A model generated the notes under the pieces. The model had not been told where the DNA came from and made no database searches. It saw only the letters and a list, made by a program, of their open reading frames with translations. This document shows, one piece after another, positions 9,879 to 35,647 of a stretch of 64,000 nucleotides of DNA. The first letter of the stretch is position 1, and the number at the start of each line of letters is the position of its first letter. Origin of the DNA: Caldinitratiruptor microaerophilus (lineage in GTDB: Bacteria > Bacillota > Sulfobacillia > Symbiobacteriales > ZC4RG38); the NCBI RefSeq assembly GCF_025999835.1, contig NZ_AP025628.1:868001-932000 (forward strand), read 5' to 3'. The position numbers and the translations under genes are program-made.

Positions 9879-10547
9879 TTAAGCTGCCCAGGGGTCTACA
9901 ACCAGACGCACCTTCGCGGCTTCCAGGTGCCAGGCCAGCAGGGGAACGAGGTCAGCCGGGACGGCGAGTACGGCGACAGCGGGTCCGCCGGCGACGCCCA
10001 TGAGCCCGCCCGGGGCCTTGTCGGGATCGACGTCGGCGCCGGAGCTGGTCTTGAGGGCGACGACACGCAGGCCCCGCGCGACGATCTGGGCGGCGGCCTC
10101 CTGCGGCGGCTGCCCGGACTGCGCCCTGTTTTGCGGCGTGGCGATCACGTCCACGGAGTCGCCGGGGCGGAGGTAGAGGCCGGTATTCTGGGCGAGGGGG
10201 ACCTCGAAGGCGACCTCGCCCTCCAGGAGTCCCCTCCGCATGGGCGCGTCGATCAGCATGCCGGGGAGGAGGACCTGGCCGGGGAGGATGTCCTGGGCAG
10301 CGACCTTGCCCGCGGCCTGGTCGACGCCGGCCAGGGCTTCGGCGGGAGCGGCCCGGCGCGGGATCTCGCGCACCTCGAGGGCGGCGGCCGGCAGAGGCTG
10401 GAGCGCCCGGACGTGGGCCTTGGCGAAGACCACGGGGACCGGCTCCTCGCCGGGGCCGATGGCCTGAGCTTGGCGGAAGAGGAAGAGGGCGGAGGCGGAG
10501 GCCACCGTGAAGGAGAGGAGCAGGGCGTAGGGTTTGCGCAGGTACAA
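9879..10547 (-). CDS. cpaB: CpaB/RcpC-family Tad pilus assembly protein (SAF domain)
   Basis: A single N-terminal membrane helix (YALLLSFTVASASALFLF) is followed by an SAF/CpaB beta domain: VPVVFAKAHVRALQPL, the AAQDILPGQVLLPGM step and LRPGDSVDVIATP. Family knowledge: CpaB/RcpC is periplasmic or extracytoplasmic and helps Flp pilus assembly. TTG at 10547 about 8 nt after AAGGTGG is preferred; GTG 10559 and ATG 10607 are possible, but the latter would put a hairpin inside the gene. It is the last Tad gene of the leftward block. Confidence 0.82.
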   Translation of the reverse strand: MYLRKPYALLLSFTVASASALFLFRQAQAIGPGEEPVPVVFAKAHVRALQPLPAAALEVREIPRRAAPAEALAGVDQAAGKVAAQDILPGQVLLPGMLIDAPMRRGLLEGEVAFEVPLAQNTGLYLRPGDSVDVIATPQNRAQSGQPPQEAAAQIVARGLRVVALKTSSGADVDPDKAPGGLMGVAGGPAVAVLAVPADLVPLLAWHLEAAKVRLVVDPWAA

Positions 10548-10575
10548 GCCGTTCACCACCTTGGGAAGTGGGGAA

Positions 10576-10603
10576 GGGCGGGAGGCAGGGGGGCCTCCCG
10601 CCC
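10576..10603 (-). terminator. GC-rich hairpin between surface protein and cpaB
   Basis: Perfect 10-bp stem (GGGCGGGAGG with CCTCCCGCCC) and 8-nt loop, 8 bp past the stop of the upstream gene. No T tract follows, so it may act as a pause, an mRNA end-protector or an attenuator rather than a strong terminator. Confidence 0.5.
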
Positions 10604-10610
10604 GCATGCG

Positions 10611-12464
10611 TCAGTCGGGCACGGGCACCACCCAGATGGTGGTCCCCTGGATCGTCACCTGGCCGGGGGCGGTGTCCCGGCCGGCGGGGCCGTCGGCCGT
10701 GACGGTGACGGTGTAGGGGTCCAGGGTGCGTTCGGCCATGACGTCCTGCCACTCGTCGAGCGTGATCCAGTCGACCTTCTTGGTACCCCGCCAGACGGTG
10801 GTCCCCGGGGCCTGGCCGGAGACCTGGGTCAGGGTGATCACGGGGTTGCCGCCCTTCTGCTCGTAGTCCGACCGGCGGTACTGCACGTACGCGGAGACGC
10901 TGGCCGCCCGCCCCGTGAGCTCGACGCTGACGGTCAGGATATCGGCGAACTTGATCGGGTTCGGGGAGAGGGTGACGCTGCGGACGCTCGGCGGGGCGGG
11001 CCTCACGGTGACGGACGCCTGGCGGGTGGCTGTCTGGCCTCTGTCACCGGCGACGACGACGGTGATGGGGTAGGTCTTTTCCTGCGGCGCGGCCGGGGCC
11101 GTCACGGTCGCCGTCCAGGTGTCACCGGAGCCGGAGAGGCGGGACTGCTGGCCCCAGCCGAACGTGGCGAGGCCCTGGGTCACAGGCCCCATGGTCTTGG
11201 CGGTGACGGTGAGGGTCTGTCCCTCAGTGACGGGGTTCGGCGTGACGGTTACGGAAAGGATGCTCACGGGAACGGTGTCAGGCGGCGTGATGGTTACGCC
11301 AGGTCCGCTGCCCACGCCGGAACCGCCGCGGCCGGGGCTATTGAGGGAGATGTCAACGATGCCGCCAGGGGTGCGGATGATGCCGGCTCGGGTGTCATAG
11401 GACCAGGACCACCCGCCGGGGAAGGTGGAGAGCAGGGTGTCGGCCACCTCCGGCGAGACGGCTCCGACGGGCGTCACCATGTTGAGTTCCCGGGGCGCGC
11501 TCGCTTTCCAGCCCACGTCGGCCTTGGGGCCGGAGCTGCCCGTGCCCGTGGCCGCGTAGTAGTGGGCGCTCACGAGGATCATGTTGCCCTCGACGGCGAA
11601 GCCGGCGTCACGGAAGCGCCGGAGCTGCTCGGGCGTGAGCTTGTCGGTGGGGATGGCCGAGATGGTGCCGCCCGAGCCCTTGTTCTGGTTGGCGGCGAAC
11701 TGCGCCACCATGACGGGCTGGCCGTCGCTGCCGATGAGGGGCTTCCCGTCGACCAGGAGGGGGGTGAAGCCTGCGAGGGCGCCGTAACCGATCCGGGCAT
11801 ACGACTCGGGCGGTTGGTAGAGTGAGCCGGCACCGCCGGTGGGATACCGGTCGCTCCTGCCTGCTTGGCCACCCGCGCCGCTGCCGGAGGTGTAGTCCTC
11901 CCGGCGGCCGGTGCCCGTGGACAGCAGCCACTCCGGCGGCTGCAGGCCGGTGCTGCGGCTGTAGTCGCTGCGCGCCCGTTCGGCCCGCTCGTGGGCCTCG
12001 TTCATCCGCTGCTGGGCGGCCTGCATGGCAGCGGCGTCGTCGCGGGCCTGGGCAGCCCGGAACGCGTCGTAGGCAGTCTGCCAATCCTGTTTTGCCTGCT
12101 GGACGGCTTTCTCCATTCGGTCGAAGGCGCTGCTGCCCGAAGTCGGCGATGAGCTTCGGCCGGCCGAACCGCCGGAGGAACTCCCGCCGCCACCACCGGG
12201 ACGGCCGCTGCTACCACCTCCACCCGAGGTCATCTGGCGGTAGAGGTCCATGGCCTTGCTTTCGTTGGCCCCTTGGGCGCGGAGCTCATTTGTCCGGCGG
12301 TGGGCCGCCTCCATGGCGGCGGTATCGCCGCGCTTCTTGGCCTCCTCGTACTTCACCTTCTGCTCGGCGAGCTGCTGCGTGAGGCTCTTGCCGGCGGCAG
12401 CGGGGGAGGCGGCGAGGAGGACGAGGGCCACAGAAAAAGCCAGCCATGCTCGACGCGAACGCAA
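10611..12464 (-). CDS. Secreted, coiled-coil and Ig-like-repeat surface protein
   Basis: TTG at 12464, 9 nt after GGGAGG, gives 617 residues. It starts with a signal peptide (RAWLAFSVALVLLAASPAAA). Residues 30-170 hold charged coiled-coil segments (KVKYEEAKKRGDTAAMEAA and AQARDDAAAMQAAQQRMNEA) split by a Gly/Ser linker. The C-terminal 230 residues hold two or three beta-sandwich repeats with the phrases VTPNPVTEGQTLTVTAKT and LSPNPIKFADILTVSVEL. No catalytic motif seen. Between SLH protein and cpaB in the same operon, it is likely an external component of the pilus or mating surface. Function is not recognised. Confidence 0.6.
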   Translation of the reverse strand: MRSRRAWLAFSVALVLLAASPAAAGKSLTQQLAEQKVKYEEAKKRGDTAAMEAAHRRTNELRAQGANESKAMDLYRQMTSGGGGSSGRPGGGGGSSSGGSAGRSSSPTSGSSAFDRMEKAVQQAKQDWQTAYDAFRAAQARDDAAAMQAAQQRMNEAHERAERARSDYSRSTGLQPPEWLLSTGTGRREDYTSGSGAGGQAGRSDRYPTGGAGSLYQPPESYARIGYGALAGFTPLLVDGKPLIGSDGQPVMVAQFAANQNKGSGGTISAIPTDKLTPEQLRRFRDAGFAVEGNMILVSAHYYAATGTGSSGPKADVGWKASAPRELNMVTPVGAVSPEVADTLLSTFPGGWSWSYDTRAGIIRTPGGIVDISLNSPGRGGSGVGSGPGVTITPPDTVPVSILSVTVTPNPVTEGQTLTVTAKTMGPVTQGLATFGWGQQSRLSGSGDTWTATVTAPAAPQEKTYPITVVVAGDRGQTATRQASVTVRPAPPSVRSVTLSPNPIKFADILTVSVELTGRAASVSAYVQYRRSDYEQKGGNPVITLTQVSGQAPGTTVWRGTKKVDWITLDEWQDVMAERTLDPYTVTVTADGPAGRDTAPGQVTIQGTTIWVVPVPD

Positions 12465-12560
12465 GCGCGTCACCTCCCACGGAAGGGCGAGAAGAAGCAG
12501 GCCCGGCACCGGACGGTGCGGGCCTGCGGATGCAGGGTGTGCCGTCAGGCGAGGCCGGAG

Positions 12561-13961
12561 CTACTCGCGGCACCGGCCGAACTCGTCGCAGTGGTCCTTC
12601 GTCCACCAGGCCGGCAGGGCACCCGGCCCGAGCATGTCGCTCTCCTTCCACCCCTCCTGGTCCCGGACATAGAAGAGCATCCGTCCGTAGTACGAGGTGC
12701 CCGGCATGAGCTGGTTCGTCACGGCTTCCACGGCATCGAGGACTGCAAAGCGGGTGCCGAGGAAGACGGGGCGGGCGGCGACGATCCGCTGGCGGCCACC
12801 CGGGCGGGGGAGCTTGCGTCCGGACCAGGCCCCCGACGCAGCCCCGCCGTCCGCGAAGAGCCCATCCCAAGTGACGTATTTCGGGAGGTCCGACTGGCGG
12901 ATCCGGTCGTAGATCTGCCGGTAGGTCGTGTCAGGCCGGACCCAGTCGCCGATCTCCCCGTCGATCGCGGCGGCCTTGTTGCTGATCTCGACCAGTTCCT
13001 CGACCGTGGGCGGATCATCCGTCAGGAGGTTCGCCAGGACCACGAGCATCTTGGCGGCCTCCAGGCGGGTGACGGGCTGGGCGGGGCGGAAGACCCGACT
13101 GCCGCCCTCGTCATAGCCGGACACGACGCCCAGCTGGGCCGCGTAGCGGATGTTCTCGGACCCCGGGTAGCTCATCGACAGGTCCATGAAGGTCGGAGGC
13201 ACGTCACCGGGCTGGGGGATCTCGACCCACTCCCAGGGGATCTCGTCCCACTTGCCCACCCAGCGGTGCGCGTGCTGAGGGTTGACCCACCGCATGGGCT
13301 GGACGTTCTTGAGGTCCTCCGGAGTCACGTCCAGGCGACGGAGGACGGCGCCGATCCAGGCGGCCAGCTCGCCCCGGGTGATGGGCCGCTCGGGCTCGAA
13401 GCGGTACGCCTCGCCCTGGCGGTGCTGCGCCATGTCGATGATCCCCTCGTTCTGGAGGGTGTGGACGTAGGGCGCGTACCACGCCGCGTCGTCCACGTCG
13501 GCGAACGCAGGAACGCCCGGCCGGAGAGGTACGGTGCCGCCGAACACCCCGAACCCGACGCGGGCCACGGCCGCGGCCGCTTGGGCTCGGGTGAAGGGGA
13601 CCTTGATGGCGAACTCACGGGGTGCCAGGAGGCCGTCGGTTCCCGGGTAGGTAGGGGGCATGCTGCGGATGACGTCGTTCAGCGGGTCGGGGTCGTCCTT
13701 ATATCGTTCGTAGAGCTCCCGATACAGGACGGGTGGCTGGCCGTTGCCCGGGTCGATGGGCACATCGCCGCGGTCGAATCCCTTCATGATCTCGAGAGCA
13801 GCGGCCAGGGCCACGTACCCATGGGCCCAGGGATGACTGAGCTCGATGGTGGCCCAGTCGTCGAACGCGGTGGCCGGGAAGGCCAGGGCGGGCGAGGCGG
13901 TGGAGACGACCACCGCAGCCAGAACGATGGCCACTGCCAGCTTGCGAACGTTCACGTGCAT
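12561..13961 (-). CDS. S-layer homology (SLH) domain surface protein
   Basis: 466 residues with a signal peptide (AVAIVLAAVVVSTASPALA). SLH-type repeats follow: LAPREFAIKVPFTRAQAAAA, FADVDDAAWYAPYVHTLQNE with FEPERPITRGELAAWIGAVL, and AAQLGVVSGYDEGG with FRPAQPVTRLEAAKMLVVLA. Family knowledge: SLH domains tether proteins to pyruvylated secondary cell-wall polymer. The C-terminal third (from about residue 330) is not recognised. SD GGGAGGGG precedes the ATG. Its place in the Tad/T4SS block suggests it anchors the pilus machine to the wall. Confidence 0.85.
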   Translation of the reverse strand: MHVNVRKLAVAIVLAAVVVSTASPALAFPATAFDDWATIELSHPWAHGYVALAAALEIMKGFDRGDVPIDPGNGQPPVLYRELYERYKDDPDPLNDVIRSMPPTYPGTDGLLAPREFAIKVPFTRAQAAAAVARVGFGVFGGTVPLRPGVPAFADVDDAAWYAPYVHTLQNEGIIDMAQHRQGEAYRFEPERPITRGELAAWIGAVLRRLDVTPEDLKNVQPMRWVNPQHAHRWVGKWDEIPWEWVEIPQPGDVPPTFMDLSMSYPGSENIRYAAQLGVVSGYDEGGSRVFRPAQPVTRLEAAKMLVVLANLLTDDPPTVEELVEISNKAAAIDGEIGDWVRPDTTYRQIYDRIRQSDLPKYVTWDGLFADGGAASGAWSGRKLPRPGGRQRIVAARPVFLGTRFAVLDAVEAVTNQLMPGTSYYGRMLFYVRDQEGWKESDMLGPGALPAWWTKDHCDEFGRCRE

Positions 13962-14426
13962 TCACCCCTCCCGTCGATCAGCTCGTCCCGGACCGGGCAG
14001 GAGCACCCGCCCGGTCAGCGCGAGGTGGTGGTCGAAGCCGAAGACGTGCTCGACGGACTCCATCTCGAGCACCACGAGGGTCAAGGCGTCCGTGTAGGAC
14101 AGGTCCTGGTCGGCATAGCGCCGCAGCGTATCCCGGGTGGCCTTGTCCGCTGCCGCGTCGGGGTAGATCACCTTCAGGTGGCCGGTCGCCACCGCGTCCT
14201 CGATCGTGTCCAACCATCGGAGCGCGGGTGTCCGCCCGAGGTGGTATCGCAGGAACGTGTACGTCTCCCCCAGGACGGCGGCGGTCGTAAGCCGGACGAT
14301 CCGGGGGGACAGCGACCGGTAGAACGCGGCGGCCTCGGCGTGCATCCGGTCGGCGGCGTTGGCCAGGGCGATGAACGCCCCCGTGTCGATGAAGAGCTTA
14401 CTTCCGGGCGTAAAGGTAGCGGTCAT
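13962..14426 (-). CDS. PIN-domain RNase toxin (VapC-like)
   Basis: 154 residues. The PIN acidic residues are visible in LFIDTGAFIALANA, TTAAVLGETYTFL and LSYTDALTLVVLE; VEHVFGFDHHLAL closes the fold. Family knowledge: VapC toxins are Mg-dependent endoribonucleases that cut tRNA or rRNA. The start overlaps the end of the ribbon-helix-helix gene by 29 nt. The pair is embedded in the Tad/T4SS block and transcribed with it, so it should act as an addiction module for the element. Confidence 0.85.
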   Translation of the reverse strand: MTATFTPGSKLFIDTGAFIALANAADRMHAEAAAFYRSLSPRIVRLTTAAVLGETYTFLRYHLGRTPALRWLDTIEDAVATGHLKVIYPDAAADKATRDTLRRYADQDLSYTDALTLVVLEMESVEHVFGFDHHLALTGRVLLPGPGRADRREG

Positions 14427-14625
14427 GGTTCACCGCCCCGTCCTCCGGCCCGCCCTGGGCGATGCCGATGGTGTCCAGCAGCGGGTCGCGGGTGCGGGCC
14501 CGGCTGTACGCCTCGATGGCCCGCCGGACGATCTCCGTCTCGCTCAGCCCTTCCTCCTCGGCCAGGCGCTTGAGGATCCGTTCCTGGTCGTCGGTCAAGT
14601 AGACGATCTTCTTGACCGTCGCCAT
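14398..14625 (-). CDS. Ribbon-helix-helix (CopG-type) antitoxin
   Basis: 75 residues starting MATVKKIVYLTDDQERILKR, with EEGLSETEIVRRAIEAYSR forming the RHH helices. The tail would bind the PIN toxin encoded immediately downstream. The ATG lies just beside a 40-bp palindrome that covers the Shine-Dalgarno and -10 region, so autoregulation is very likely. Confidence 0.85.
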   Translation of the reverse strand: MATVKKIVYLTDDQERILKRLAEEEGLSETEIVRRAIEAYSRARTRDPLLDTIGIAQGGPEDGAVNHDRYLYARK

Positions 14626-14882: not shown

Positions 14883-14885
14883 GGG

Positions 14886-15440
14886 TCAGCGGTACTGCCA
14901 GGAGCCAGAGGGCTGGTCGTAGCTCGGGGCAGCCTGGCGGGTGGCGACGCGCACGTCCATGCGGGAGGCGGGCAGACCGAGGAAGCGGACCGTGACGGGA
15001 AAGCGCACCTGGGCGTAGACGCTGGGCCCGGACACGGGCTGGCCGAGGGGGTCCCGGGTGCCTGCGTCTGCGGCGCGGTACACCCGGAAGTCCTCCAGGA
15101 CGACGGGACCGGCCATCACGGGGTCGGCAGGAGGGGGTGCCCAGCCCGCCGAGAGGCCGGCGAACTGCGGGAAGGCATGGAGGAAGGCCGCACGGGCACG
15201 GGGTTCGACGATCTCCGCGCGGCCCGTGGCGGCCATAAGGAGAGGGTCGGTCTGGGCGGCGGCGGCATCGAGGGCGGCGACCAGAGCCTGCTCGATGCGG
15301 GAGCGGGCGGCGGCGACCTCGTGCACTATGGCGAAGCCGGCGAGGACGGCGGCGAACAGGAGGAGCAGCGCGGCAGCCAGGATGCCCAGACTGCCGCGCT
15401 GGTCCGTGATGATCGGGGCAATCATGGTCTCAGCATCCAT
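14886..15440 (-). CDS. TadE/TadG-like pseudopilin
   Basis: 184 residues from ATG 15440. DQRGSLGILAAALLLLFAAV is the short basic/Gly leader plus hydrophobic helix of TadE/G-type prepilins. The rest is extracytoplasmic with no known domain; PVSGPSVYAQVRFPVTVRFL forms a beta segment typical of TadE tails. It follows the second TadE-like gene by 7 nt. Family knowledge: minor pseudopilins are needed for Flp pilus assembly. Confidence 0.68.
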   Translation of the reverse strand: MDAETMIAPIITDQRGSLGILAAALLLLFAAVLAGFAIVHEVAAARSRIEQALVAALDAAAAQTDPLLMAATGRAEIVEPRARAAFLHAFPQFAGLSAGWAPPPADPVMAGPVVLEDFRVYRAADAGTRDPLGQPVSGPSVYAQVRFPVTVRFLGLPASRMDVRVATRQAAPSYDQPSGSWQYR

Positions 15441-15447
15441 CCGTGCG

Positions 15448-16533
15448 TCATGCCGTCCCGCCGCCGGGGCAAGGCACGTTCTCCACATAGGTCTCCGTTT
15501 CGGCGTAGGGGATGCGCCGGGTCCGGGTCTCGTAGACGGGTACGGTCACGGTGTACGGCACCTGCCGGGTGCGGGTCTCGTGCTCGGTGTAGGTCTCTGT
15601 GACCTCGTACGGCACCTGCCGGGTGCGCGTCTCATAGATGGGGACGCTGACGGTGTACGGTTCGAGGTCCCGATACGTGCGGTAGGTGCACCGCTTGTAC
15701 AAGGTGCCCGAGCAGACCTTCTTGCGTTTGGTGACTTCCCGGTACTTGGTTTCCTGCCGCGTCCCCACCTGCACCTGATAGGTCTCCTTGCGGTACCGGG
15801 TGACGGTCCGGGTGCGCTGGACCGGCACCTGATAGGTTTCCTCGCGGTACCGCGTCTCCTCCCGGCTGCCGACCTGCACCTGGTACGCCTCGTCCCGGTA
15901 CTTGGTGACCCTCCGGGTCTTGGTGACAGGCCCGCACTTGGGAGCGTCCGACCGGGCCGGAGTTCCCTCCGAATCCCGCCAGGGCTGGAACGCGTGCTGG
16001 TTGGGCTGTGCCCCGGCGCCCGGGGCGGGGCCGTGCTGGGGGGCCGGGGTGCGGGCGTCACCCGACTCGATGCCCGCCGAGCCGGTGGCGCCGGCAAACG
16101 TGGGTTGGGTGCAGGCGTTGTTCCGGACCGGGGCGACGTGGTTGGACACGGCGGTTGCGGTGGCCGCCACGCGGACCCTGAGCGGGGTCTCGAGGCCGAG
16201 CAGGGTGATCGGCAGCAGGTACTCGACCCGGGCCTGGACGCCCTCGCCATAGGGCTGTCGGTTGGTGGTGGCGCTCAGGGCCAGCCGGGAGGGGTCCAGG
16301 CCGGCCTGGTCGAGGTAACTCCGGACCTGGGCGTCGGTGCGGGCGTCGTAGCAGCCGTTCTCGCTGACGTTCTCGGCCACGGCCTCGGCGACCCGCTTGA
16401 GGTGGGCCTGCACGGCGGAGGTACGGGCCACCTGGGCACCGCCCAGGAGAGCAGACCCTGCGACAAGGAGGCCGCCCATCAGGCCGATGACCTCGGCGGA
16501 ACCGCGCTGGCCGTGGGGAAGGCGAAAGCGCAA
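15448..16533 (-). CDS. TadE-like pseudopilin with C-terminal Tyr/Thr/Arg beta-repeat tail
   Basis: 361 residues. The N-terminus has a QRGSAEVIGLMGG leader and hydrophobic helix followed by a pilin-like domain. From about residue 205 the protein becomes a chain of short repeats, first YRDEAYQVQVGSREET-like units (five), then YETRTRQVPYEVTETYTEHE-like units (four). Alternating aromatic, Thr and Arg residues suggest a beta-solenoid or fibre. One Cys pair (KKVCSGTLYKRCTY) divides the two repeat types. The repeat tail could be the adhesive part of the pilus. TTG is the likely start. Confidence 0.65.
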   Translation of the reverse strand: MRFRLPHGQRGSAEVIGLMGGLLVAGSALLGGAQVARTSAVQAHLKRVAEAVAENVSENGCYDARTDAQVRSYLDQAGLDPSRLALSATTNRQPYGEGVQARVEYLLPITLLGLETPLRVRVAATATAVSNHVAPVRNNACTQPTFAGATGSAGIESGDARTPAPQHGPAPGAGAQPNQHAFQPWRDSEGTPARSDAPKCGPVTKTRRVTKYRDEAYQVQVGSREETRYREETYQVPVQRTRTVTRYRKETYQVQVGTRQETKYREVTKRKKVCSGTLYKRCTYRTYRDLEPYTVSVPIYETRTRQVPYEVTETYTEHETRTRQVPYTVTVPVYETRTRRIPYAETETYVENVPCPGGGTA

Positions 16534-16594: not shown

Positions 16595-16786
16595 TCACTG
16601 GATGGCCGTCACCTTGTTGATGACGGCCTGGAGCCAGCTGGTCACGGCCGGCAGGGCGGTGCCGTTCATGAACACGTAGATAGCGGCGGCGAAGAGGAGG
16701 CCAATCACGACGTAGACGAGGCTGTCCATCCCGCCACGCTCCTCGCGGACGAGGCGGAGCCAGAAGGCCTTCAGGCGGCCGGTCAT
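16595..16786 (-). CDS. Flp-type major pilin
   Basis: 63 residues from ATG 16786 behind GGAGG. A basic leader (LKAFWLRLVREERGGMD) precedes a single hydrophobic helix (SLVYVVIGLLFAAAIYVFM). Length and pattern match Flp/Fap pilins, whose G-x4-E/D site is cut by TadV/prepilin peptidase; here the cut would fall at the Gly-Gly before MDS. The family's usual Glu-Tyr pair is not clear. No TadV peptidase gene is seen in the window. Confidence 0.7.
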   Translation of the reverse strand: MTGRLKAFWLRLVREERGGMDSLVYVVIGLLFAAAIYVFMNGTALPAVTSWLQAVINKVTAIQ

Positions 16787-16887
16787 GGGGTTCACCTCCG
16801 GTGAGTCGGATTGCAGCCGGGCTGGGTCGGCGGGCGGCGCCCGGCTGCGGGCAGGGATGGCCGGCATGGGATCACCTCCCGTACGGG

Positions 16888-17664
16888 TCAAGGGCGGGCA
16901 AGCGAGTGGAGCGAGGCCAGGAGGATCGGCCCGCCGATCACCACCGCCAGGTTGAAGAGCCCAAGCATGGCGATGAGGGCGAAGGCGGCGGGCATCCGGC
17001 GGGAGACCTCCCGGACCTCGGCCTCCGCCGTACGGCGGAGGGAGTCGGACAGGGTGGCGAAGGCCTCCTGGCCCGTGGCGCGAGCCTGGAGCGCGGCGGC
17101 AAGCCGCGCGGCGACGGCGGCCATCTCGGGGCGGCCGGTCACCTGACCCAGAGAGTGGACCGCAGCGGAGAAGTCCTGGCCGAGTGCCGCCCGGGCGAGG
17201 GCCTGCTGCACCTGTAAGCGGAGGGGGCCGGAGAGGAGGGGGGCGGCCCCGGCGAGGGCTCTGAGTGGCGTGTCACCGGCGGCGAGGTGGATCTCCAAGA
17301 GGTCGGCCAGCATGGGCAGCTCCCGGAAGATCTCGGCCTGCCAGCGCCGGTACTCGCCCTCCAGGGACCAGAGGGACAGGCCGGCCACGGCGAGGGCGAG
17401 CAGAAGCGCCTTGAACCCGAGCGCGGGCAGGAAAAGGAGCGCAGCCAGAATGCCGCCCAGGATCAGGGCGACCGCGCTGGTGGGCGGCCACCCTACGGCG
17501 TCAAGGCGCGCCTGGACCGGGCGCGGCAGGCGAGCGGCCAAAGCGTCCGACCATGCTTGGCGCCGGATGAGGGGCACCCGCCGCGGCCGGAGCGGCGGCG
17601 GCGCGAGCAGGGTGTAAGCGAAGGCGGTGACGCTGGCGACGAACAGGACGAAGGCGGGGATCAT
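16888..17664 (-). CDS. tadC: TadC-like inner-membrane platform protein (GspF domain)
   Basis: 258 residues, with membrane helices at the N-terminus (FVLFVASVTAFAYTLL), near residue 65 (LILGGILAALLFLPALGF) and at the C-terminus (ALIAMLGLFNLAVVIGGPIL). The cytoplasmic GspF-type stretch is ELPMLADLLEIHLAAGDTPL. Family knowledge: TadB and TadC form the pilus platform with the TadA ATPase. It overlaps tadB by 4 nt. Confidence 0.85.
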   Translation of the reverse strand: MIPAFVLFVASVTAFAYTLLAPPPLRPRRVPLIRRQAWSDALAARLPRPVQARLDAVGWPPTSAVALILGGILAALLFLPALGFKALLLALAVAGLSLWSLEGEYRRWQAEIFRELPMLADLLEIHLAAGDTPLRALAGAAPLLSGPLRLQVQQALARAALGQDFSAAVHSLGQVTGRPEMAAVAARLAAALQARATGQEAFATLSDSLRRTAEAEVREVSRRMPAAFALIAMLGLFNLAVVIGGPILLASLHSLARP

Positions 17665-20801: not shown

Positions 20802-21053
20802 ATGGCCACGCTCTCGGTCCGGGTCCCGGACGAGCTGAAGCGTGTCCTGGAAGCCCGGGCGAAGGGTCAGCATCGTCAGCCTTCGGACCAGGTGCGGCGC
20901 TACCTGGAGATCGCCATGATCGCCGAAGACAACCCGGACCTGTCGTTCCAGATGATCGAGGCGATCCTTGAGGCCCAGGCAGAACTGGACGCGGGGCTTG
21001 CCGAGCCGTACGAGTTCGGGGACGTCGGCGGAGATGCAGGGGTTCAGGGTTGA
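20802..21053 (+). CDS. RHH-type antitoxin of a RelBE/ParDE-like module
   Basis: 83 residues starting MATLSVRVPDELKRVLEARA, a ribbon-helix-helix N-terminus, with an acidic tail (AELDAGLAEPYEFGDVGG) that would wrap the toxin. Its 3' end overlaps the toxin by 20 nt. With its partner it is one of the few rightward genes inside the leftward block, so it has its own promoter (20741-20769). Confidence 0.83.
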   Translation: MATLSVRVPDELKRVLEARAKGQHRQPSDQVRRYLEIAMIAEDNPDLSFQMIEAILEAQAELDAGLAEPYEFGDVGGDAGVQG

Positions 21054-27536: not shown

Positions 27537-28427
27537 CTACCAGACGGCGCGGGCGAGCACGTGGGCCGCCGCGTGAGTGGCCAGGCTCATGGTCGCCCGC
27601 CCGAAGCCGGAGGAGTAGGCGTAGGTGCGGAGCACCCGGGGGCTGGTGACGCCGACCCAGATGAGGGCCATGGCGAGGACGAAGCTGCGGAAGTCGAAGC
27701 CTTTGCCCAGGGTCATGTGGATGACGCCGTACATGACGAGCATCTGCACGGCCTGGGTGAGGCTGACGACGAGCACTTCCCGCCACCAGACGGCGAAGGT
27801 GCCGGAGGCGAGGAAGTCGTCGTTGCCGGCGACGGAGACGGCGAGGATCGGGCCCGCGACGTAGGCGACGGCCAGCTCAGCACCGCGGATGGCGGCCTGG
27901 AAGTGGAGGATGAGGAGGCCGAGGAGCATCAGGACGACGAAGAGGGCCGCCAGGAGGACAGGAACCGGGGACGGTGTGGGGGAGAGCGGGAAGGGCAGCA
28001 GGCCGGCGACGAGGGTCTCCGCCCACTGCTGGACGTCCACGGCGAATCCGGCCCGGGCGAGATCGTCGGTGAGGAGGTTGGCGAAGAGGGTCACGAGCCC
28101 GACGACGGACGGGCTGCCCGCCACGGCGGCGGCTCCGAGGGTGGTGCGGCGGAACCAGACGAGGGGGTCGAGATGGGGCTCGCCGGCGGCCCGGAGCTGA
28201 TAGAGCCGCACGGCGTCGAAGGTGGCCCGCAGCCCCAGCAGGCTCCAAGCCACTCCGGAGGTGACCTGGTAAGCAGACTGGACCCAGGGCTCCGGAACGA
28301 GCCAGACGACCTTGAGCAGGTCCGCGGTGTACTGGAGGAGCCAGGTGGCGATCTGACGCACCTGGTCGGCGAGCCATTGCTCCACGGCACCCTGGACGAG
28401 CCGGTTGAGGGCGTCGACGAGATTCAC
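27537..28427 (-). CDS. TrbL/VirB6-like polytopic channel protein
   Basis: GTG 28427 after GAGGTG gives 296 residues with at least five hydrophobic spans, e.g. VLLAALFVVLMLLGLLILHF, GAELAVAYVAGPILAVSVAG and LVVSLTQAVQMLVMYGVIHM. The order of an N-terminal amphipathic region, central Pro-rich loop (FPLSPTPSPVPV) and C-terminal spans fits TrbL/VirB6 proteins, the inner-membrane pore of type IV secretion. It is 3 bp upstream of the VirB3-like gene. Confidence 0.82.
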   Translation of the reverse strand: MNLVDALNRLVQGAVEQWLADQVRQIATWLLQYTADLLKVVWLVPEPWVQSAYQVTSGVAWSLLGLRATFDAVRLYQLRAAGEPHLDPLVWFRRTTLGAAAVAGSPSVVGLVTLFANLLTDDLARAGFAVDVQQWAETLVAGLLPFPLSPTPSPVPVLLAALFVVLMLLGLLILHFQAAIRGAELAVAYVAGPILAVSVAGNDDFLASGTFAVWWREVLVVSLTQAVQMLVMYGVIHMTLGKGFDFRSFVLAMALIWVGVTSPRVLRTYAYSSGFGRATMSLATHAAAHVLARAVW

Positions 28428-28448
28428 GGGCACCTCTTCCCCCCTTTC

Positions 28449-28591: not shown

Positions 28592-28915
28592 TTACTGGAA
28601 GTAGCCGGACAGCCAGTTGATGGTTCCTGCAGCCGTCTCGGCGATGGCCGTGCCGATGAGGACCTTGCGCATGGCGCTGTTGTGGCGTTGGACGTTGGTC
28701 TCGTCCGGGTCGACGTTCCGCATGAGCGCGTGGTAGGCGAGCATGGAGCCGCCCGTGCCTGGCACGAGGAGGAGGAGCCATGAGGTAGCCTCGTTCACGA
28801 GGCGGGCGGCACCCTGGACGACCGGCGGGGCTGCGGCCCAGGCGGCGGAGGCGCCGGCGAGGGCGGCAACGAGCAGGGGAAACGCGGCGAGAACGCGCAC
28901 GAGGAGTCGGCGCAC
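28592..28915 (-). CDS. VirB2/TrbC-like conjugative pilin
   Basis: GTG 28915 after AGGAGG gives 107 residues. A signal peptide (LLVRVLAAFPLLVAALAGAS to AWA) is followed by two hydrophobic segments: EATSWLLLLVPGTGGSMLAY and RKVLIGTAIAETAAGTINWL. Size and plan fit VirB2/TrbC-type subunits. It is immediately upstream of the VirB6-like gene, its usual place. Confidence 0.78.
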   Translation of the reverse strand: MRRLLVRVLAAFPLLVAALAGASAAWAAAPPVVQGAARLVNEATSWLLLLVPGTGGSMLAYHALMRNVDPDETNVQRHNSAMRKVLIGTAIAETAAGTINWLSGYFQ

Positions 28916-29793: not shown

Positions 29794-32361
29794 TTACTGG
29801 CTTGCGTGGCGTGGCGGGTACGCGAAGTCGACGCCGCTGCCGTCGCGCCGGAGCACGAGGGCAGCGCTGAACCGGTTGCCGGTCCGGCTGCGGAAGCCGT
29901 CCAGGACCGGTGTCTGACCGTCCCGGAGGAGGGCGGCGAGTTCCTCGTGGGCCAGGGCACGGCCGGCCACCGCGCGCCGGACGTTCAGGCGGCAACCGGG
30001 GCCGGTGCAGCGAACGGCGAACCGGCCCAGCTCCAGAGGGCTGCCGCACAGGGGGCAAGGCGGCAGGTCCGGCGGGCCCGGCTGTGTCCCCGTGGGAGCC
30101 TCGTGCGCGCCGGCTTCGGCGGGAGGGCGCTCCCCCGTGTGACCCCGCCGCGCTCCGCGCGCCCAGAGAGGCACGCGTCCCCCAGGCCCGGGAGGGGTTT
30201 CCGCCACGTCCGGGCCCGTGGCCTCGGGGCTTTCCCCCGCTGAGTGATCGCCATCCATGCCGCGCGTGCCCCCGGTGTCGGCAACGCTCGCGACGGCCGC
30301 CCAAACCGGGGTGCGGGCGCGGCCGCCCGTCCCGGGGGGAGGAGCCGAGCCCGGGGCAGAGCCCTGCCCGCCGGGGGCGCCCGCGCTCGCGTCGTGGCCA
30401 GTGCGGGGGTCAGCCGGCACAGAGGACGCGGCGCCGTCGTCGGGGGGTGATGCGGCCACGTCGGATGGCGCGAAGGATTCGCCGGCCAGGAGCTGTGCCA
30501 GGGTGGAGGCCGCGCCGGCGAAGGGCACGGGAGACCAGAGCGGGGGCGGCCCGTCGTCTTGCCGCACGGGCGGAGGGGATCCGGGCGCCTCGAAGTCCAT
30601 GGCGAAGGGCCAGGCGGCCAGGTCGGGCAGCGGCAGGCGGACCGGGTGCTGGCCGGACTGGAGGACGAGGGCCTGTCCGGCGGGCCAGCGCAGGACCTCG
30701 TCGGGGGTGAGGAGGCTGCGGCCGGAGAGGTGCTCGCTGCTGCCCGTGCTCAGGTCGTTCCGGCGGGCGGTGGTGGAGCCGGTGCGGGTGCGGATCGTGT
30801 ACTGCCCGAGCTTCTCGGCGATCTCCTTGGCGGTCTCCCGGTCGGCCGTGCGGAGGAAGATCCAGGTGTCGCAGTTGGCGGCAATCACGGCGGCCGTCTC
30901 CTTGCCGTACCTGGCGGCGAGCTGGGGCAGCGCTTGGAGGATCATCACCGCGGCCATGCGGCGCCCCCGCATGACGGCGACCATCTTGTCCCAGTCCCGG
31001 ATCTTGCCCAGGTTGGCGAACTCGTCGAGCACCCAGTACAGGGGCACCGGCAGGCTTCCGCCGGTCGCGTGGGCCAGGCGGACGAGGGCACTGTACATCG
31101 GGGCGATGTACAGGGCGGCGATGGGGTTGCGGGTGCTGCGGTCGTCGGGGATGAGGAGGTAGACGACGGTGGGCCGGCGGCCGGGGTCGGCAAGGTCGCC
31201 GCCCTGACGGGCCGTCATGCGGGCGACGGCGGGATCGGCGAAGAGGCGGAGCTTGCTGGCCGCCGTGGTGAGGACGCCCGCCCGGGTCTTGTCCTGGCTG
31301 AGGCGGACCGTGCCGTAAGCCTGCCGGGCCGGGTGATCTTCCGGGAGGGCGTCCATGAGGAAGTCCAACTCCGCGCCGGTGTCCGCGCCCGACGTGCTCA
31401 GCAGATGACACACGCTGGCCATGTGCCGGGCTTCGGCCGACGCCTGGGTGGCGACGTACAGGGCCAGGGCGGCGATGAGGGCCTCGGCGGACTGGGCCCA
31501 GAAGGGGTCCTTGCCGTAGGGGTCGGCTCCGGAGGCGTCCCCGGTGACGAGGGTGTGCGCCAGGTCCCAGGCGAGCTGGGAGGCGTAATCGAGGTCCCCG
31601 GCCGCGGCCGCCGCGGCCACGGCCGCCAGCGGGTTGTAGGGGTCGGAACGGGCGGGGTCGATGAGGTTGAGGGTGCGTACCTGGTAGCCCTGGCGGCGGA
31701 AGTGGTCGGCAGTGGCAGCGTAGAGCTCGCCCTTGGGGTCGGTGACGACGATGGAGACGCCCGCCTGCCCCAGCAGCCACAGGGTCGGGAGGACGAGGCG
31801 GCGGGTCTTGCCGCTCCCGGGCGAGCCGATGACGAGGACGTGCGGGTTGACGGTGGGCGAGGGGACGCTGACCCAGGCGGCCATGCGCCGGCCCCGGCCG
31901 GCGGCGCCCAGCACGACGCCGGCAGGCGGCGGTCGCGAGGCGGTGCCCTCCAGGAGAGGTCGCACGGGCACCCGGGCGAGGGTGCGCCGGATCTCCTCCG
32001 GGCGGCGCCAGCGGGCCGTCCCGTGGGCGCCCGAGGGGTCGGGTGGCGGGGCCACCCCCGCCGGGCCGCGAACGGACCGCCGCCCGAACGGGTCCGGGAG
32101 GAGGAGCCAGAGCGCTCCGACGCCGACGAAGCCCTGGAGGATGAGCCAGCCGGTACGGGCCGAGCGGTCGGCGTCCGTACGGGGGGCCAGGAGACTTGCG
32201 GCCGCCCGCAGGGGGTGGCGCAGCCATCCGTCGCGCCAGTCGGCGATCCGTGCGGGCCGGCGTCCGGGCACGGGGAGGTAGGGCGGGAGGCGGGCGAGGG
32301 CGGGGAGCAGGCGGAGGTCCGCCACGAGCAGGAGCGCGAGGAGGGCGAGGCGGACGCGCAA
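29794..32361 (-). CDS. VirD4/TraG-type coupling protein with a topoisomerase-III-like C-terminal module
   Basis: TTG 32361, 9 nt after GGAGG, gives 855 residues. Two N-terminal membrane helices (LALLALLLVADLRLLPALAR and GWLILQGFVGVGALWLLLP) come first. Walker A is VIGSPGSGKTRRLVLPTLW and Walker B PLYWVLDEFANLGKI. TraG motifs VVTDPKGELY and ALPQLAARYG follow. After a 150-residue Gly/Pro/Ser linker comes a C-terminal zinc finger (CPLCGSP, CTGPGCRLNV) and the repeat TPVLDGFRSRTGNRFSAALV ending GSGVDFAYP. That tail is the same module that ends TopB at 4585. Family knowledge: the coupling protein pumps relaxase-DNA into the channel. The tail is not part of normal VirD4 and may bind single-stranded DNA. 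Confidence 0.9.
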   Translation of the reverse strand: MRVRLALLALLLVADLRLLPALARLPPYLPVPGRRPARIADWRDGWLRHPLRAAASLLAPRTDADRSARTGWLILQGFVGVGALWLLLPDPFGRRSVRGPAGVAPPPDPSGAHGTARWRRPEEIRRTLARVPVRPLLEGTASRPPPAGVVLGAAGRGRRMAAWVSVPSPTVNPHVLVIGSPGSGKTRRLVLPTLWLLGQAGVSIVVTDPKGELYAATADHFRRQGYQVRTLNLIDPARSDPYNPLAAVAAAAAAGDLDYASQLAWDLAHTLVTGDASGADPYGKDPFWAQSAEALIAALALYVATQASAEARHMASVCHLLSTSGADTGAELDFLMDALPEDHPARQAYGTVRLSQDKTRAGVLTTAASKLRLFADPAVARMTARQGGDLADPGRRPTVVYLLIPDDRSTRNPIAALYIAPMYSALVRLAHATGGSLPVPLYWVLDEFANLGKIRDWDKMVAVMRGRRMAAVMILQALPQLAARYGKETAAVIAANCDTWIFLRTADRETAKEIAEKLGQYTIRTRTGSTTARRNDLSTGSSEHLSGRSLLTPDEVLRWPAGQALVLQSGQHPVRLPLPDLAAWPFAMDFEAPGSPPPVRQDDGPPPLWSPVPFAGAASTLAQLLAGESFAPSDVAASPPDDGAASSVPADPRTGHDASAGAPGGQGSAPGSAPPPGTGGRARTPVWAAVASVADTGGTRGMDGDHSAGESPEATGPDVAETPPGPGGRVPLWARGARRGHTGERPPAEAGAHEAPTGTQPGPPDLPPCPLCGSPLELGRFAVRCTGPGCRLNVRRAVAGRALAHEELAALLRDGQTPVLDGFRSRTGNRFSAALVLRRDGSGVDFAYPPRHASQ

Positions 32362-32555: not shown

Positions 32556-32828
32556 TCAGGAATCGCCAAAGAAGTCTTGGGCGAGGACTTGCGCCAGCTT
32601 GGGTGACGACGCGGGCGCGGCGGCCGGAGGCGGGCGGGTGCCCGGGGCTGCGAGCGCGCCCCGGAGCGCCAGGGCGAGGAGCGTCAAGGCGGCCGTGATA
32701 GCGCCGTGCGCGTCGCTCCCGTAAAGGGCCAGCACCTCCGCGGGAGGGCCCGGGGGTACCTCGTAGAGGAGACGATCCCCCGGCTGGATCGGCCGACGCT
32801 TGCGCCGAACGGCGTTGCGCGTGCCCAT
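32556..32828 (-). CDS. Small basic protein after ParM: candidate ParR-type adaptor
   Basis: ATG 32828 overlaps the parM stop (ATGA), giving 90 residues. The N-terminus is highly basic (GTRNAVRRKRRPIQPGDRLL), followed by YEVPPGPPAEVLALYGSD and a hydrophobic helix (GAITAALTLLALALRGALAA). Position and size fit the ParR component of ParMRC systems, which is a small RHH protein binding iterons next to the operon; the iteron array is 35 bp downstream. No direct sequence signature of RHH is certain, so this is inference from context. Confidence 0.5.
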   Translation of the reverse strand: MGTRNAVRRKRRPIQPGDRLLYEVPPGPPAEVLALYGSDAHGAITAALTLLALALRGALAAPGTRPPPAAAPASSPKLAQVLAQDFFGDS

Positions 32829-33913
32829 CACGCCACCACGGCCTCGGCGCGGCCCCAAGCCCGGTGCCACAGGCCTGCCGCGTTGGCCCACAGGGGGTCG
32901 TCAGCCAGGGTTACGGGCAGCCGGCTCGAGTCTTGCAGGTAGGGTGCCAGCAGGAGGCCTCCGCCGCCGATCAGGAGGAGGCGCGTGACGTTGCCGGCCC
33001 GCGAAACCGCCTCCGTGACGAGTCGGGTCACGTCCCGGGCGAGGCGCGTCAGCTCGTGCCGGGCGACGTCGGTGAGGTCGTAGGGCCGCCCCAGCCCCCA
33101 GAGCACGACCGGCCCCCCGGTCCGCGCCGCCTCGTGCAGGGCGTTCAGCACGTCGCCGCGGTGGCGGGCGACGTGAGGGCCGTGCCGCTGGCGAGCCGCC
33201 GCAAGGATGCGGTCCGCGGCGGTGGCCAGGCCGCCGTCCGTCGTGCCGCCGGAAGGGCCGGGCTGGAACCGGCCCTGGGTGAAGATCGCCCAGTCGACAG
33301 AGCGCACGCCCACGTCGACGACGGCAACGGTTTCGTCGAGGAGCCCGGGGTCCAAGGCCGCCATCGCCAGGAAAGCGGCAGCGCCTTCGGGGATCACGTC
33401 CACCATGTCGACCACCAGGTCGAGGGAGCGGCCATCCCACGGAGGGGTCGAGAGCCAGCGCACGGTGTGGCGGCCGCGGAGGCGAGCGGCCAGGGTCTGC
33501 CGGGCCGCTGGGTCGGCGGCCTCGGCCATGGGCAGGGCGACGGCCAGGCTCAAGCGGGCCACGGTGGTAAGACGGTCGGTGCGGTGAACGGCCGCGGCGA
33601 GAGCCGTGAGGGCGAGGAGCAGCAGGCGGTCGCTCCCGGCCTTGCGCTCGCCGGCTTCGACCTCGAGCACGCGGTCGGGGTACTCACGGAGGGCGAGTTC
33701 GCCGGCGAAGATCTGCCGGGGGCCGTCGAGAAAGGGCGCTCGGATCTCGGCGTGCAGGTGCTGCACGGGGTCTTCGCCGGGGGACAGCATGTACAGGTCC
33801 CGGTGGACGCCCTCCGCAGGGGCGAGGGCGTGCGGAACGAGGAGCCGGTCCCCGGGGCGGGGACCGGCCAGCTTGAGCAGGCCATTACCCAGGTCGAGGC
33901 CGACTGCGATCAT
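32828..33913 (-). CDS. parM: ParM/Alp-type actin-like partition ATPase
   Basis: ATG 33913 gives 361 residues. Actin-fold motifs: phosphate-1 AVGLDLGNGLLKLAG at the N-terminus, phosphate-2 VAVVDVGVRSVDWAIF near residue 196, and the adenosine motif RLLLIGGGGLLLAPYL near residue 320. Family knowledge: ParM-like proteins form filaments that push plasmid copies apart. Overlaps the upstream small ORF by 4 nt and the candidate ParR downstream, forming a par operon inside the mobilisation region. This suggests the element replicates or once replicated as a plasmid. Confidence 0.88.
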   Translation of the reverse strand: MIAVGLDLGNGLLKLAGPRPGDRLLVPHALAPAEGVHRDLYMLSPGEDPVQHLHAEIRAPFLDGPRQIFAGELALREYPDRVLEVEAGERKAGSDRLLLLALTALAAAVHRTDRLTTVARLSLAVALPMAEAADPAARQTLAARLRGRHTVRWLSTPPWDGRSLDLVVDMVDVIPEGAAAFLAMAALDPGLLDETVAVVDVGVRSVDWAIFTQGRFQPGPSGGTTDGGLATAADRILAAARQRHGPHVARHRGDVLNALHEAARTGGPVVLWGLGRPYDLTDVARHELTRLARDVTRLVTEAVSRAGNVTRLLLIGGGGLLLAPYLQDSSRLPVTLADDPLWANAAGLWHRAWGRAEAVVA

Positions 33914-34161
33914 GGCTTCTCCGTCCTTCCGTGGGCCGCCGGGTGGCCAGCGGCCAGGTCGTCGAGGGTGAGTTGGCGCCCGGCGGGGGTCACCGCGGGT
34001 GAAGCGCCCGCCGGCTCGCCCAGCCACGCGGCAGGCACCGGCAGAGCCAGGAGCGCTTCTCGCTCCGCTTCCAGCCGGTCACAGGCTGGCCCGAGCTCGT
34101 GCTCGAGGTATCCAGCGAGGTCAGATAGGGATCGGCAGGGGCGCACGTCAATCCCTCCCAC
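33910..34161 (-). CDS. Small protein between relaxase and parM
   Basis: 83 residues starting MGGIDVRPCRSLSDLAGYLE, predicted mostly helical (EHELGPACDRLEAEREALLA) with a C-terminal GRQLTLDDL. It overlaps the relaxase end by 14 nt and parM by 4 nt, so it is coupled to both. No family recognised. Possible relaxosome accessory or partition regulator. Confidence 0.55.
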   Translation of the reverse strand: MGGIDVRPCRSLSDLAGYLEHELGPACDRLEAEREALLALPVPAAWLGEPAGASPAVTPAGRQLTLDDLAAGHPAAHGRTEKP

Positions 34162-35308
34162 GCCCGTCGCGCCGGCGGGCGCGCTCCTCCTCGGTAGGAG
34201 CCCGCTCCTCGGCGCGGCGTTGGGCTTCGCTCAGGGCCGCGCTGGCAGCCAGAAGGAGGCCCCGCACAGCTCCGAGCGCGACCGGCGGAACCGTGGGGGC
34301 AGTAGACGGGACGATCGGCCCTCCCCGGATGTCCCGGTTCAGCTGTGCGGCGGCCCGGACGATGAGCTGGGCGATTCGGCCCCGGAGGTCTCGCATCGCT
34401 TTTTGCTCGGCGACGTCCAGAGCGCGGTTCCTGGACGTGTACAGCCCCGCCATCTGCCGGACGGTCTGGCGGTACAGATTCACGGCGGCCGCCAGGGACG
34501 GGTGTTGGAGGAGGCGCTCGGCAACCCGGAGAGCTTCGTCTTTCACGTCCTGGGGCATGAAGGCGAGGACGGCCCGACCGCGGCCAGGCATGCGGCCAGC
34601 GAGGGTCAGGAGCCGGGAGGCGAGTTCTTGCTCCAGAGGAGACGGCTTCGGACCCGAGAGCCGGCCGGGGGCTTGCAAAGCCTGACCTGCCCGAGCCCGG
34701 AGCGCCCTGCGCCGGGCACCGGCCTGAAGGGCGAGGGAAATGCTGTGTTGGAGCACGTCGTTCGCGGCAACGCGCAGGGAATCACGAAGGATGGTCTTGC
34801 GGGCCGCCAGGGGCGCGCGAACGGGGGCCAGCACCTGGCGCGCCCATGCCTGCCGGACCTCCCTGAGCTCGGCCGGCCGGAGCTTGCCTTGCCGCCGGGT
34901 AGGCGGGTCCTCCCAGAGGACGACGTGGAGGTGCGGGTGGCCAGGGGCCCGGTGCAGGGCGGCCGCCCACCGTACAGCCCCAGGGTCGAGTCCCATGCGG
35001 GCCGCGATCTGCGGCACGGCCAGACGGGCCAGGCGCTCCCAGTCGGCCCGGGCCTGGTAACCCCAGCGGAGGGCATCGTCCTCCCGCAGGCTCAGGACGA
35101 GGCGCCAGACGGGACCGGTATGGTCACGGACAGCCCTCTGCACCTCGACCCGGTCGGGGGGCCTTTGGGGATCGGGGCCGAAGAGCGCCCGGCCCACGCG
35201 GCCGCCGTCCGCCCCGTGGGTGGCGATGTAGTAGACGTGTGCGGCGTTGCGGGCGCCGATGGTGGGTCCGGGCTCGCGGAAGCTCAACTTGGCGACGGGG
35301 ATGGCCAT
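34148..35308 (-). CDS. MobP-type relaxase
   Basis: 386 residues. The metal-binding HxH motif of relaxases is HRAPGHPHLHVVLWE near residue 121. The N-terminal region (RNAAHVYYIATHGADGGRVG, with two Tyr residues) is where the catalytic tyrosine would be, and WRLVLSLREDDA follows. The C-terminal half is helical and Arg-rich. Family knowledge: relaxases nick oriT, stay bound to the 5' end and lead the strand through the channel; MobP3-like proteins in Bacillota are of this size. First large gene of the leftward transfer operon; oriT is expected nearby but was not identified. Confidence 0.82.
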   Translation of the reverse strand: MAIPVAKLSFREPGPTIGARNAAHVYYIATHGADGGRVGRALFGPDPQRPPDRVEVQRAVRDHTGPVWRLVLSLREDDALRWGYQARADWERLARLAVPQIAARMGLDPGAVRWAAALHRAPGHPHLHVVLWEDPPTRRQGKLRPAELREVRQAWARQVLAPVRAPLAARKTILRDSLRVAANDVLQHSISLALQAGARRRALRARAGQALQAPGRLSGPKPSPLEQELASRLLTLAGRMPGRGRAVLAFMPQDVKDEALRVAERLLQHPSLAAAVNLYRQTVRQMAGLYTSRNRALDVAEQKAMRDLRGRIAQLIVRAAAQLNRDIRGGPIVPSTAPTVPPVALGAVRGLLLAASAALSEAQRRAEERAPTEEERARRRDGRGRD

Positions 35309-35329
35309 GGGTCATCAACTCGATGGGGA

Positions 35330-35647
35330 TTAGTTTGCCCACAGGGGGCGCCGTCCGTTGCCGGCTCCCTTTGTTTCGTGGGTCTGTGGCTGCGGGGTAT
35401 CCCGTTGCCGGGGGATGAGGCGGTTGGCGAGCTTGATTGCCTCGCCGTTGAGGTGTCGGATGTCCTCTTCCGGCAGGTCCAGGGCGCCCAGGATCATGAG
35501 CGCGAGCTCCGCTGCCCGTGCCGCCTGAACGGCGCCCCGGTGGACTTCGTTCCGAACATGCTGGAGGTGAAGGACCAGGCGGTCGTCCAGGGCTTGGGTG
35601 TTGCTGCCCGCGCTATTTGTCGCTCCGGTGACCAGCGACGATGTCAT
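35330..35647 (-). CDS. Small protein upstream of the relaxase, candidate relaxosome accessory
   Basis: 105 residues. A central helical part (LVLHLQHVRNEVHRGAVQAA, DIRHLNGEAIKLANRLI) is flanked by polar tails. It lies 21 bp upstream of the relaxase on the same strand, where accessory nicking proteins usually are. No RHH or HTH signature is evident. It marks the last recognisable gene of the conjugative block. Confidence 0.5.
   Translation of the reverse strand: MTSSLVTGATNSAGSNTQALDDRLVLHLQHVRNEVHRGAVQAARAAELALMILGALDLPEEDIRHLNGEAIKLANRLIPRQRDTPQPQTHETKGAGNGRRPLWAN

Follow-up and report, generated by a model that had tools for sequence, protein, structure and literature searches.

A probable sigK-intervening conjugative element with a Tad pilus locus in Caldinitratiruptor microaerophilus

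INTRODUCTION

Excision of the skin element in the mother cell restores the interrupted sigK gene (PMC6957869). Most elements that interrupt genes in this way are prophage-like, although gin is a non-viral exception (PMC5595907). Here, a 64,000-nucleotide stretch of DNA from Caldinitratiruptor microaerophilus (the window; genome positions 868001-932000 of a single-contig 3.6-Mb chromosome, NZ_AP025628.1) is analyzed. The window probably holds the larger part of one arm of an integrative and conjugative element (ICE) that was inserted in sigK and later split by an inversion between two copies of an insertion sequence (IS). Its conjugation genes and a near-complete set of Tad genes span window 3.6-35.6 kb, nearly all on one strand, and "high-GC Bacillota" is a fair description of the host. 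Coordinates refer to the window unless genome positions are specified.

The present element resembles Bacillus subtilis skin and the corresponding element of Clostridioides in that sigK is interrupted beside a large serine recombinase gene and the joined halves form an open sigK. However, skin is described as prophage-like, whereas the present element carries a relaxase, a type IV secretion system (T4SS), and Tad genes, and its developmental excision is a prediction. The gin element in gerE of B. cereus ATCC10987 is likewise non-viral, occupies a sporulation gene, and uses serine recombinases (PMC5595907). It interrupts a different gene and is smaller at 28.6 kb, and the portion of that report available mentions no conjugation or Tad apparatus.

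The presence of a T4SS and a Tad system on one Gram-positive mobile element is partly in the literature already (PMC6803676; PMC5696575). In Sulfobacillus thermotolerans, plasmids pL15 and pY0017 and the integrated region of strain Kr1 carry TadA/B/C-like, ParM, relaxase, TraG, and VirB4 genes together (PMC6803676), and the VirB4 proteins of these elements are 45% identical to that of the window. These elements are plasmids or plasmid-like, however, and their Tad genes (TadABC of pY0017 among them) were called a putative type II secretion system, lie 18 kb upstream, and were reported without a link to sigK. The Flp-pili plasmids of Cutibacterium acnes have a tad locus adjoining VirB4- and TcpC-like genes, with the functional link left open by the authors (PMC5696575), but these plasmids are linear and actinobacterial and use an FtsK-type translocase. 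The IncI plasmids R64 and TP114 and the island PAPI-1 encode their own type IV pilus beside VirB4/VirD4, and this pilus helps liquid mating of the IncI plasmids and is essential for PAPI-1 (PMC12857230). Unlike the present element, they are Gram-negative and belong to other classes of both type IV pilus and T4SS.

Similar gene arrangements occur on two free plasmids. Exiguobacterium pEYLC1.2 carries ParM, a MobP3 relaxase, VirD4, a VirB2-like pilin, TrbL (VirB6), and VirB4, followed by CpaB, TadZ, TadA, TadB/C-like, Flp-like, and TadE-like genes, an order that parallels the present one. On Carboxydocella pCCELLA01, a single run comprises Tad, VirB4, and M23 peptidase genes, and this plasmid differs from the window in encoding its own prepilin peptidase. 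No description of a conjugative element inside sigK was found in the literature, in a search that left most subscription journals outside. The new part is the probable identity of a conjugative T4SS/Tad element as a sigK-intervening element.

RESULTS

The interruption of sigK

Annotation was based on gene calls and on Pfam and NCBIfam profile searches. The sigK gene and the recombinase sit to the left of the window, outside it. The 5' half of sigK (genome 860367-860852) ends after ...LATYAARCIEN; related genomes within the family and within the order have an intact gene. Beside this half lies a gene for a large serine recombinase of 519 amino acids (genome 861621-863180) with Resolvase, Recombinase, and Zn-ribbon domains, followed by an ArdC-type antirestriction gene, by toxin-antitoxin (TA) genes, and then by the methyltransferase, resolvase, topoisomerase III, SpoVG, Tad, and T4SS genes of the window. 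From the recombinase through ArdC, topoisomerase III, Tad, and T4SS to the relaxase, everything is encoded on one strand except for one open reading frame and one TA pair. The 3' half of sigK was absent from genome 848-952 kb, the region searched first, and resides at genome 1386287-1386640 on the minus strand, where the downstream synteny is as in relatives of the order.

To evaluate the junctions as attachment (att) sites, every core that restores the sigK reading frame was tried. With the core GA, the element-side arms match at 20 of 25 positions as an inverted repeat centered on the core (p about 1e-7), forming a dyad like that of an attP site, and the host sides joined at this core read CIENEILMYL, which restores an open sigK. 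The sigK junctions can therefore be read as the two ends of one element inserted by the recombinase. The gene is split at a single site with a serine recombinase adjacent, as expected for a sigK-intervening element. The gene content, ends, junction sequences, and apparent history of the element are all read from the sequence.

A probable inversion between IS copies

The relaxase end of the window cluster is bordered by an IS with TniB-like AAA and DDE genes (35599..39173, minus strand), of which the chromosome holds at least eight copies. Its left flank, GCTTGGG, reappears at the border of an IS cluster at genome 1431.8 kb. The IS cuts a gene for a relaxosome protein of the ribbon-helix-helix (RHH)/CopG type, whose C-terminal part (g38) remains at 35330..35598 (minus strand) and whose other part lies at genome 1431.8 kb. 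When the IS and one copy of the repeat are removed, the rejoined flanks form a single, full-length open RHH-like frame just upstream of the relaxase. On the other side, a thiolase fragment at 39174 and a 5' part at genome 1438.99 kb give a thiolase of 387 amino acids once a 5-bp duplication is removed. The restoration of both broken genes upon removal of the IS argues that a single IS-IS inversion of about 0.53 Mb would have split the element. With this inversion undone, the sigK halves are in direct orientation and about 88 kb apart, the arrangement of a sigK-intervening element.

Independent support for the two arms belonging together comes from an element-specific hairpin repeat of about 140 bp that is present in both. 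It occurs, without assigned strand, ahead of topoisomerase III (6861..7002), within the Tad genes (14743-14885), near VirB6 (28448-28590), and, in the other arm, at genome 1431287-1431425. These four copies are the only ones in the chromosome, and all fall within the reconstructed element. The repeat is GC-rich, sits in intergenic gaps, and has a fold z of -3.4; it could be a regulator or a processing site. The far arm starts with a LexA/CI-like repressor gene and includes, at genome 1397191-1428076, chemotaxis-type genes (FlhF-, FliG-, CheX-, CheA-, CheR-, and CheB-like, and MCP); these may be cargo or may have arrived later. A BioY-thiolase segment exists in two copies (window 45-48 kb and genome 1438.9-1440.6 kb), and the IS inversion split the second copy.

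Examples in other genomes

A contiguous counterpart is provided by JACDOG010000008.1, a contig of an unrelated Thermoanaerobacteraceae metagenome-assembled genome (MAG), in which a 49.7-kb stretch with a recombinase, a T4SS, and Tad genes lies between sigK halves that share the same GA core. From the side of the sigK 3' half, it encodes the recombinase, type I Cas, CpaE-like, M23, VirB4, VirB6, VirB2, VirD4, ParM, ArdC, and relaxase proteins, then TadE-like proteins, a TadV-like peptidase, Flp, TadC, TadB, TadA, TadZ, CpaB, and SSB, and ends at the sigK 5' half. Integrase, att sites, relaxase, and T4SS, which together define an ICE when confined to one bounded element, are thus contiguous in this MAG, and they become so in C. 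microaerophilus after one inversion is undone. The type I CRISPR-Cas set inside the JACDOG010000008.1 element occupies contig positions 65.4-73.0 kb and includes Cas3 and Cas5 by Pfam.

Syntrophomonas zehnderi provides a third case, divided over two contigs: one has the sigK 5' half along with T4SS and Tad genes, and the other has the recombinase and the sigK 3' half. Module order and orientation differ among the three cases, and therefore a recurring association is indicated instead of one recent clone. A Desulfovirgula sp. MAG was considered as a fourth case and was left uncounted, since its Tad and T4SS genes flank the sigK 3' half from outside. Its sigK is split with a recombinase, and Tad and T4SS genes share the same contig, an arrangement that may reflect either rearrangement or misassembly. 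Several elements are stacked in the sigK gene of one relative within the order of C. microaerophilus: breaks occur near residues 40-62, at residue 95, and some 36 residues into the 3' half, and large serine recombinases adjoin them.

The secretion and pilus genes

The first-pass annotation of the window, made from the sequence alone, read a T4SS followed leftward by a Tad pilus gene set, and the gene calls and profile matches bear this out. All genes of both blocks described here are on the minus strand. The T4SS block begins with a MobP3 family relaxase (g37; 34148..35308; NCBIfam MobP3 185 bits with a cut-off of 150, Pfam MobL 29.5) and a ParM/StbA-like actin homolog (g36; 32828..33913; Pfam ALP_N 2.4e-10 and MreB-like_C). 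The VirD4 coupling protein (g34; 29794..32361) matches Pfam T4SS-DNA_transf (1e-69), scores above the cut-off in the NCBIfam CD1115 family, and ends in a zinc repeat of the topoisomerase III type (Toprim_Crpt 5e-15). A small VirB2-like membrane protein (g31; 28592..28915) gives no Pfam hit, and it holds a conserved position in most related loci; its counterpart on pEYLC1.2 is annotated as a pilin. VirB6/TrbL (g30; 27537..28427; Pfam TrbL_4 5e-29) is followed by a candidate VirB3-like partner of VirB4 (g29; 26532..27533), also lacking a Pfam hit and conserved immediately ahead of VirB4 in relatives. Next are the VirB4 ATPase itself (g28; 24691..26535; Pfam P-loop_TraG; relatives 40-61% identical) and an M23 peptidase for VirB1-like wall opening (g27; 23518..24684; Pfam M23 4e-28). 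The encoding of VirB4, VirD4, and relaxase together, along with a VirB6-like protein (TrbL_4) and a wall hydrolase (Peptidase_M23), is characteristic of a Gram-positive conjugative T4SS of the MPF_FATA-like type.

The last gene of the T4SS block encodes a CpaE-like protein with a receiver-like domain and a degenerate ATPase (g24; 21385..22713), and orthologs follow VirB4-M23 in many relatives. Membership of this gene in the Tad block was rejected, since it trails the T4SS even where no TadA is found within 10 kb. With its degenerate Walker A motif, this Tad-type positioning protein may belong to the T4SS itself.

The Tad block opens with a TadZ-like ATPase (g21; 19809..20687; Pfam CbiA, AAA_31, and MipZ) and the TadA/CpaF ATPase (g20; 18485..19816; Pfam T2SSE 1e-24). 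TadB (g19; 17661..18488) and TadC (g18; 16888..17664) fall just under the gathering score for Pfam T2SSF, at 4e-5 and 3e-5 (23.9 and 24.6 bits vs. a cut-off of 25.2), and are colinear with genes of a second chromosomal Tad locus, tad2. An Flp-like pilin candidate (g17; 16595..16867) is recognized by size, position, a hydrophobic N-terminal stretch, and a colinear copy in tad2; two TadE-like pseudopilin candidates (g16 and g15; 15448..16479 and 14886..15488) are recognized by position and N-termini. Beyond them are an SLH surface protein (g12; 12561..13961; Pfam SLH 2e-19), a secreted surface protein with Ig-like repeats (g11; 10611..12431), whose counterpart in tad2 is 61% identical, and CpaB/RcpC (g10; 9879..10559; Pfam RcpC and SAF; NCBIfam pilus_cpaB above cut-off). 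TadA with the two platform proteins TadB and TadC, together with TadZ and CpaB/RcpC, identifies a Tad (type IVc) pilus system. Overall, the assignments of TadA, VirB4, VirD4, relaxase, CpaB, TrbL, and M23 are firm, and those of VirB2, VirB3, Flp, and TadE are candidates based on place, shape, and conserved order. As a separate observation, the Glu that usually stands at position +5 from the presumed cleavage site is missing from the Flp-like pilins of several T4SS-linked Tad loci, and the pilin of the JACDOG010000008.1 element has it.

Linkage of Tad and T4SS modules

The gene order relaxase-VirD4-VirB2-VirB6-VirB3-VirB4-M23-CpaE-like is well preserved in the roughly 80 related VirB4 loci surveyed. 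A TadA gene is near VirB4 in 15 of the 57 loci that could be scored, mostly with flanks of 10 kb. In a tally from the whole genomes of 20 relatives, with four Paenibacillus loci scored from the flank-based locus survey, TadA lies within 30 kb of VirB4 in 13 of 22 loci of the family, always on the same strand (13/13). About one such case would be expected from the TadA density of those genomes (p about 6e-13). The first-pass annotation had reasoned that the junction would be accidental if related genomes always kept the two systems at separate loci. Instead, they are linked in these 13 loci, on several plasmids, and in the bounded 49.7-kb element.

In a TadA tree with weak deep support and long branches, T4SS-linked TadAs cluster, with 9 changes vs. 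19.4 upon shuffling (0/500). On the VirB4 tree, the presence of TadA changes nine times, and at least eight of these changes are forced by well-supported branches. The locus tad2 (genome 1041334-1049777) is colinear with the window Tad genes and 60-83% identical from TadZ to CpaB, with TadA at 83%, and it lacks any T4SS; the search of TadAs from family relatives returned no close match to it. The possibility that the window Tad genes were recently copied from a Tad locus of the host was set aside, given that the TadA tree groups both the window and tad2 with T4SS-linked TadAs and not with the Tads of the order. The tad2 locus may be an escaped element module.

DISCUSSION

A route for transfer and for sigK restoration

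If the window does derive from an ICE in sigK, the recombinase would excise or insert the element there. The relaxase would nick the DNA and lead one strand out through the T4SS, with VirB4 and VirD4 powering the channel and the M23 peptidase opening the cell wall. TadA, TadB, and TadC would assemble a thin Flp pilus that extends, and perhaps retracts, to bind recipients and draw them in. Its pilin would presumably be matured by the single prepilin peptidase of the host. The type IV pili of R64/TP114 and PAPI-1 are the analogs from which we infer that the Tad pilus is a dedicated attachment device for mating, as the first-pass annotation suggested. Insertion of the IS and a subsequent IS-IS inversion would have carried the far arm, together with the sigK 3' half, to a site 526 kb distant and reversed their orientation. 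Where relatives have an intact element, its excision in the mother cell would reconstitute sigK in the manner of skin. Simple excision is no longer possible in this genome as assembled; with the att sites in opposite orientation, recombination would flip the intervening part of the chromosome, an event that could still make sigK whole.

A broader proposal is that a sigK-resident conjugative family exists across spore-forming Bacillota, in which one recombinase serves both transfer and mother-cell restoration of sigK, with a possible 526-kb inversion in the present case. This proposal might be correct, and we hold it tentatively, with somewhat more doubt than confidence. Most known sporulation-gene interrupters are prophages, dead or living, and a conjugative one would add a second purpose. 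If true, the spore cycle would be linked to conjugation. A Tad pilus encoded by the element itself would also answer how Gram-positive T4SS elements find recipients, a role that is usually given to surface adhesins in systems lacking VirB11.

Weighing the evidence

Several observations count against a probable sigK-intervening ICE with a working pilus. The sigK halves are in direct orientation in JACDOG010000008.1, whereas they are inverted, 526 kb apart, in the sole C. microaerophilus assembly examined, where an assembly error at the IS copies is possible. The Flp candidate lacks the usual Glu5, and neither it nor the TadE candidates have Pfam support. No VirB8-like protein was recognized by Pfam among g25, g26, g32, and g33. 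No prepilin peptidase (TadV) motif occurs in the Tad/T4SS cluster, as had already been noted; the proposed use of a host enzyme fits the single PF01478 match in the whole genome, about 0.5 Mb from the cluster, and fits less well with the TadV-like peptidase encoded by the JACDOG010000008.1 element itself. The gene overlaps seen earlier are real within each block (4-8 nt) and do not extend across the T4SS/Tad junction, where the blocks are parted by 697 bp and a ParE-type TA pair of opposite strand (20802..21330, plus strand; Pfam ParE-like_toxin 6e-27). Thus, a single continuous operon is unsupported. Finally, the Mantel correlation of VirB4 and TadA distances is 0.36 overall and declines to 0.10 (p 0.26) without one near-identical pair. 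A fixed, co-evolving T4SS-Tad pair is rejected on these grounds, and the weak correlation suggests that Tad modules are exchanged between elements. Such modules appear to be gained, lost, and swapped, yet they keep returning to this T4SS family.

An alternative is that Tad is cargo for surface adhesion, unrelated to mating, from which the host or the element benefits. The colinear tad2 locus without a T4SS, the weakly correlated VirB4 and TadA histories, and the nine changes of TadA presence all favor such cargo. However, the linkage is far above chance, always on one strand, and spread over at least four plasmid or element lineages, and T4SS-linked TadAs cluster on their tree, such that the cargo explanation seems unlikely. 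We consider it unlikely as well that TadA, with TadB and TadC, was recruited as a missing VirB11-like channel motor, with no true attachment pilus. Gram-positive T4SSs are said in a 2025 review to lack VirB11 universally (PMC12857230), the authors of the pAW63 study named such a gene VirB11 (PMC1196294), and the window TadA scores well against the VirB11 family of NCBIfam (5.5e-52) as well as the TadA family (9e-61), both below cut-off. But TadB, TadC, Flp-like, TadE-like, TadZ, and CpaB proteins accompany TadA here and in other elements. Moreover, TadA is missing from the 10-kb surroundings of many T4SSs of the family and from the whole searched range around some of them, and therefore the channel does not need TadA.

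Two further explanations concern the boundaries of the element. It is very unlikely that a different element, such as a prophage, interrupts sigK and that the conjugative genes are merely adjacent. The far end of the arm is displaced, and sigK elements are usually prophage-like (PMC5595907), but the nearly unbroken strand from recombinase to relaxase, the element-specific repeat common to both arms, and the confinement of this gene set between the sigK halves of JACDOG010000008.1 all speak for one element. An accidental union of two neighboring loci in this genome is hardly credible. The TA pair at the junction and the nearby IS-driven inversion might have suggested it, but the occurrence of the same modules in the bounded JACDOG010000008.1 element and on circular plasmids largely refutes it.

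OTHER FEATURES OF THE WINDOW

The single TA pair reported in the first-pass annotation is indeed the only one of opposite strand in the cluster, and a second pair, of the RHH/PIN type (13962..14625, minus strand; Pfam PIN), lies on the same strand as its neighbors inside the Tad block. No transfer RNA or Rfam features were detected in the searched region. Left of the Tad block, on the minus strand, are SpoVG (7099..7383; Pfam SpoVG 3e-24) and topoisomerase III (4585..6783; Pfam Topoisom_bac 3e-115). The Toprim_Crpt zinc repeat is common to the C-termini of topoisomerase III and VirD4 (4663-4921 and 29808-30067), with 72% identity at the DNA level, and the two look as if one was copied from the other.

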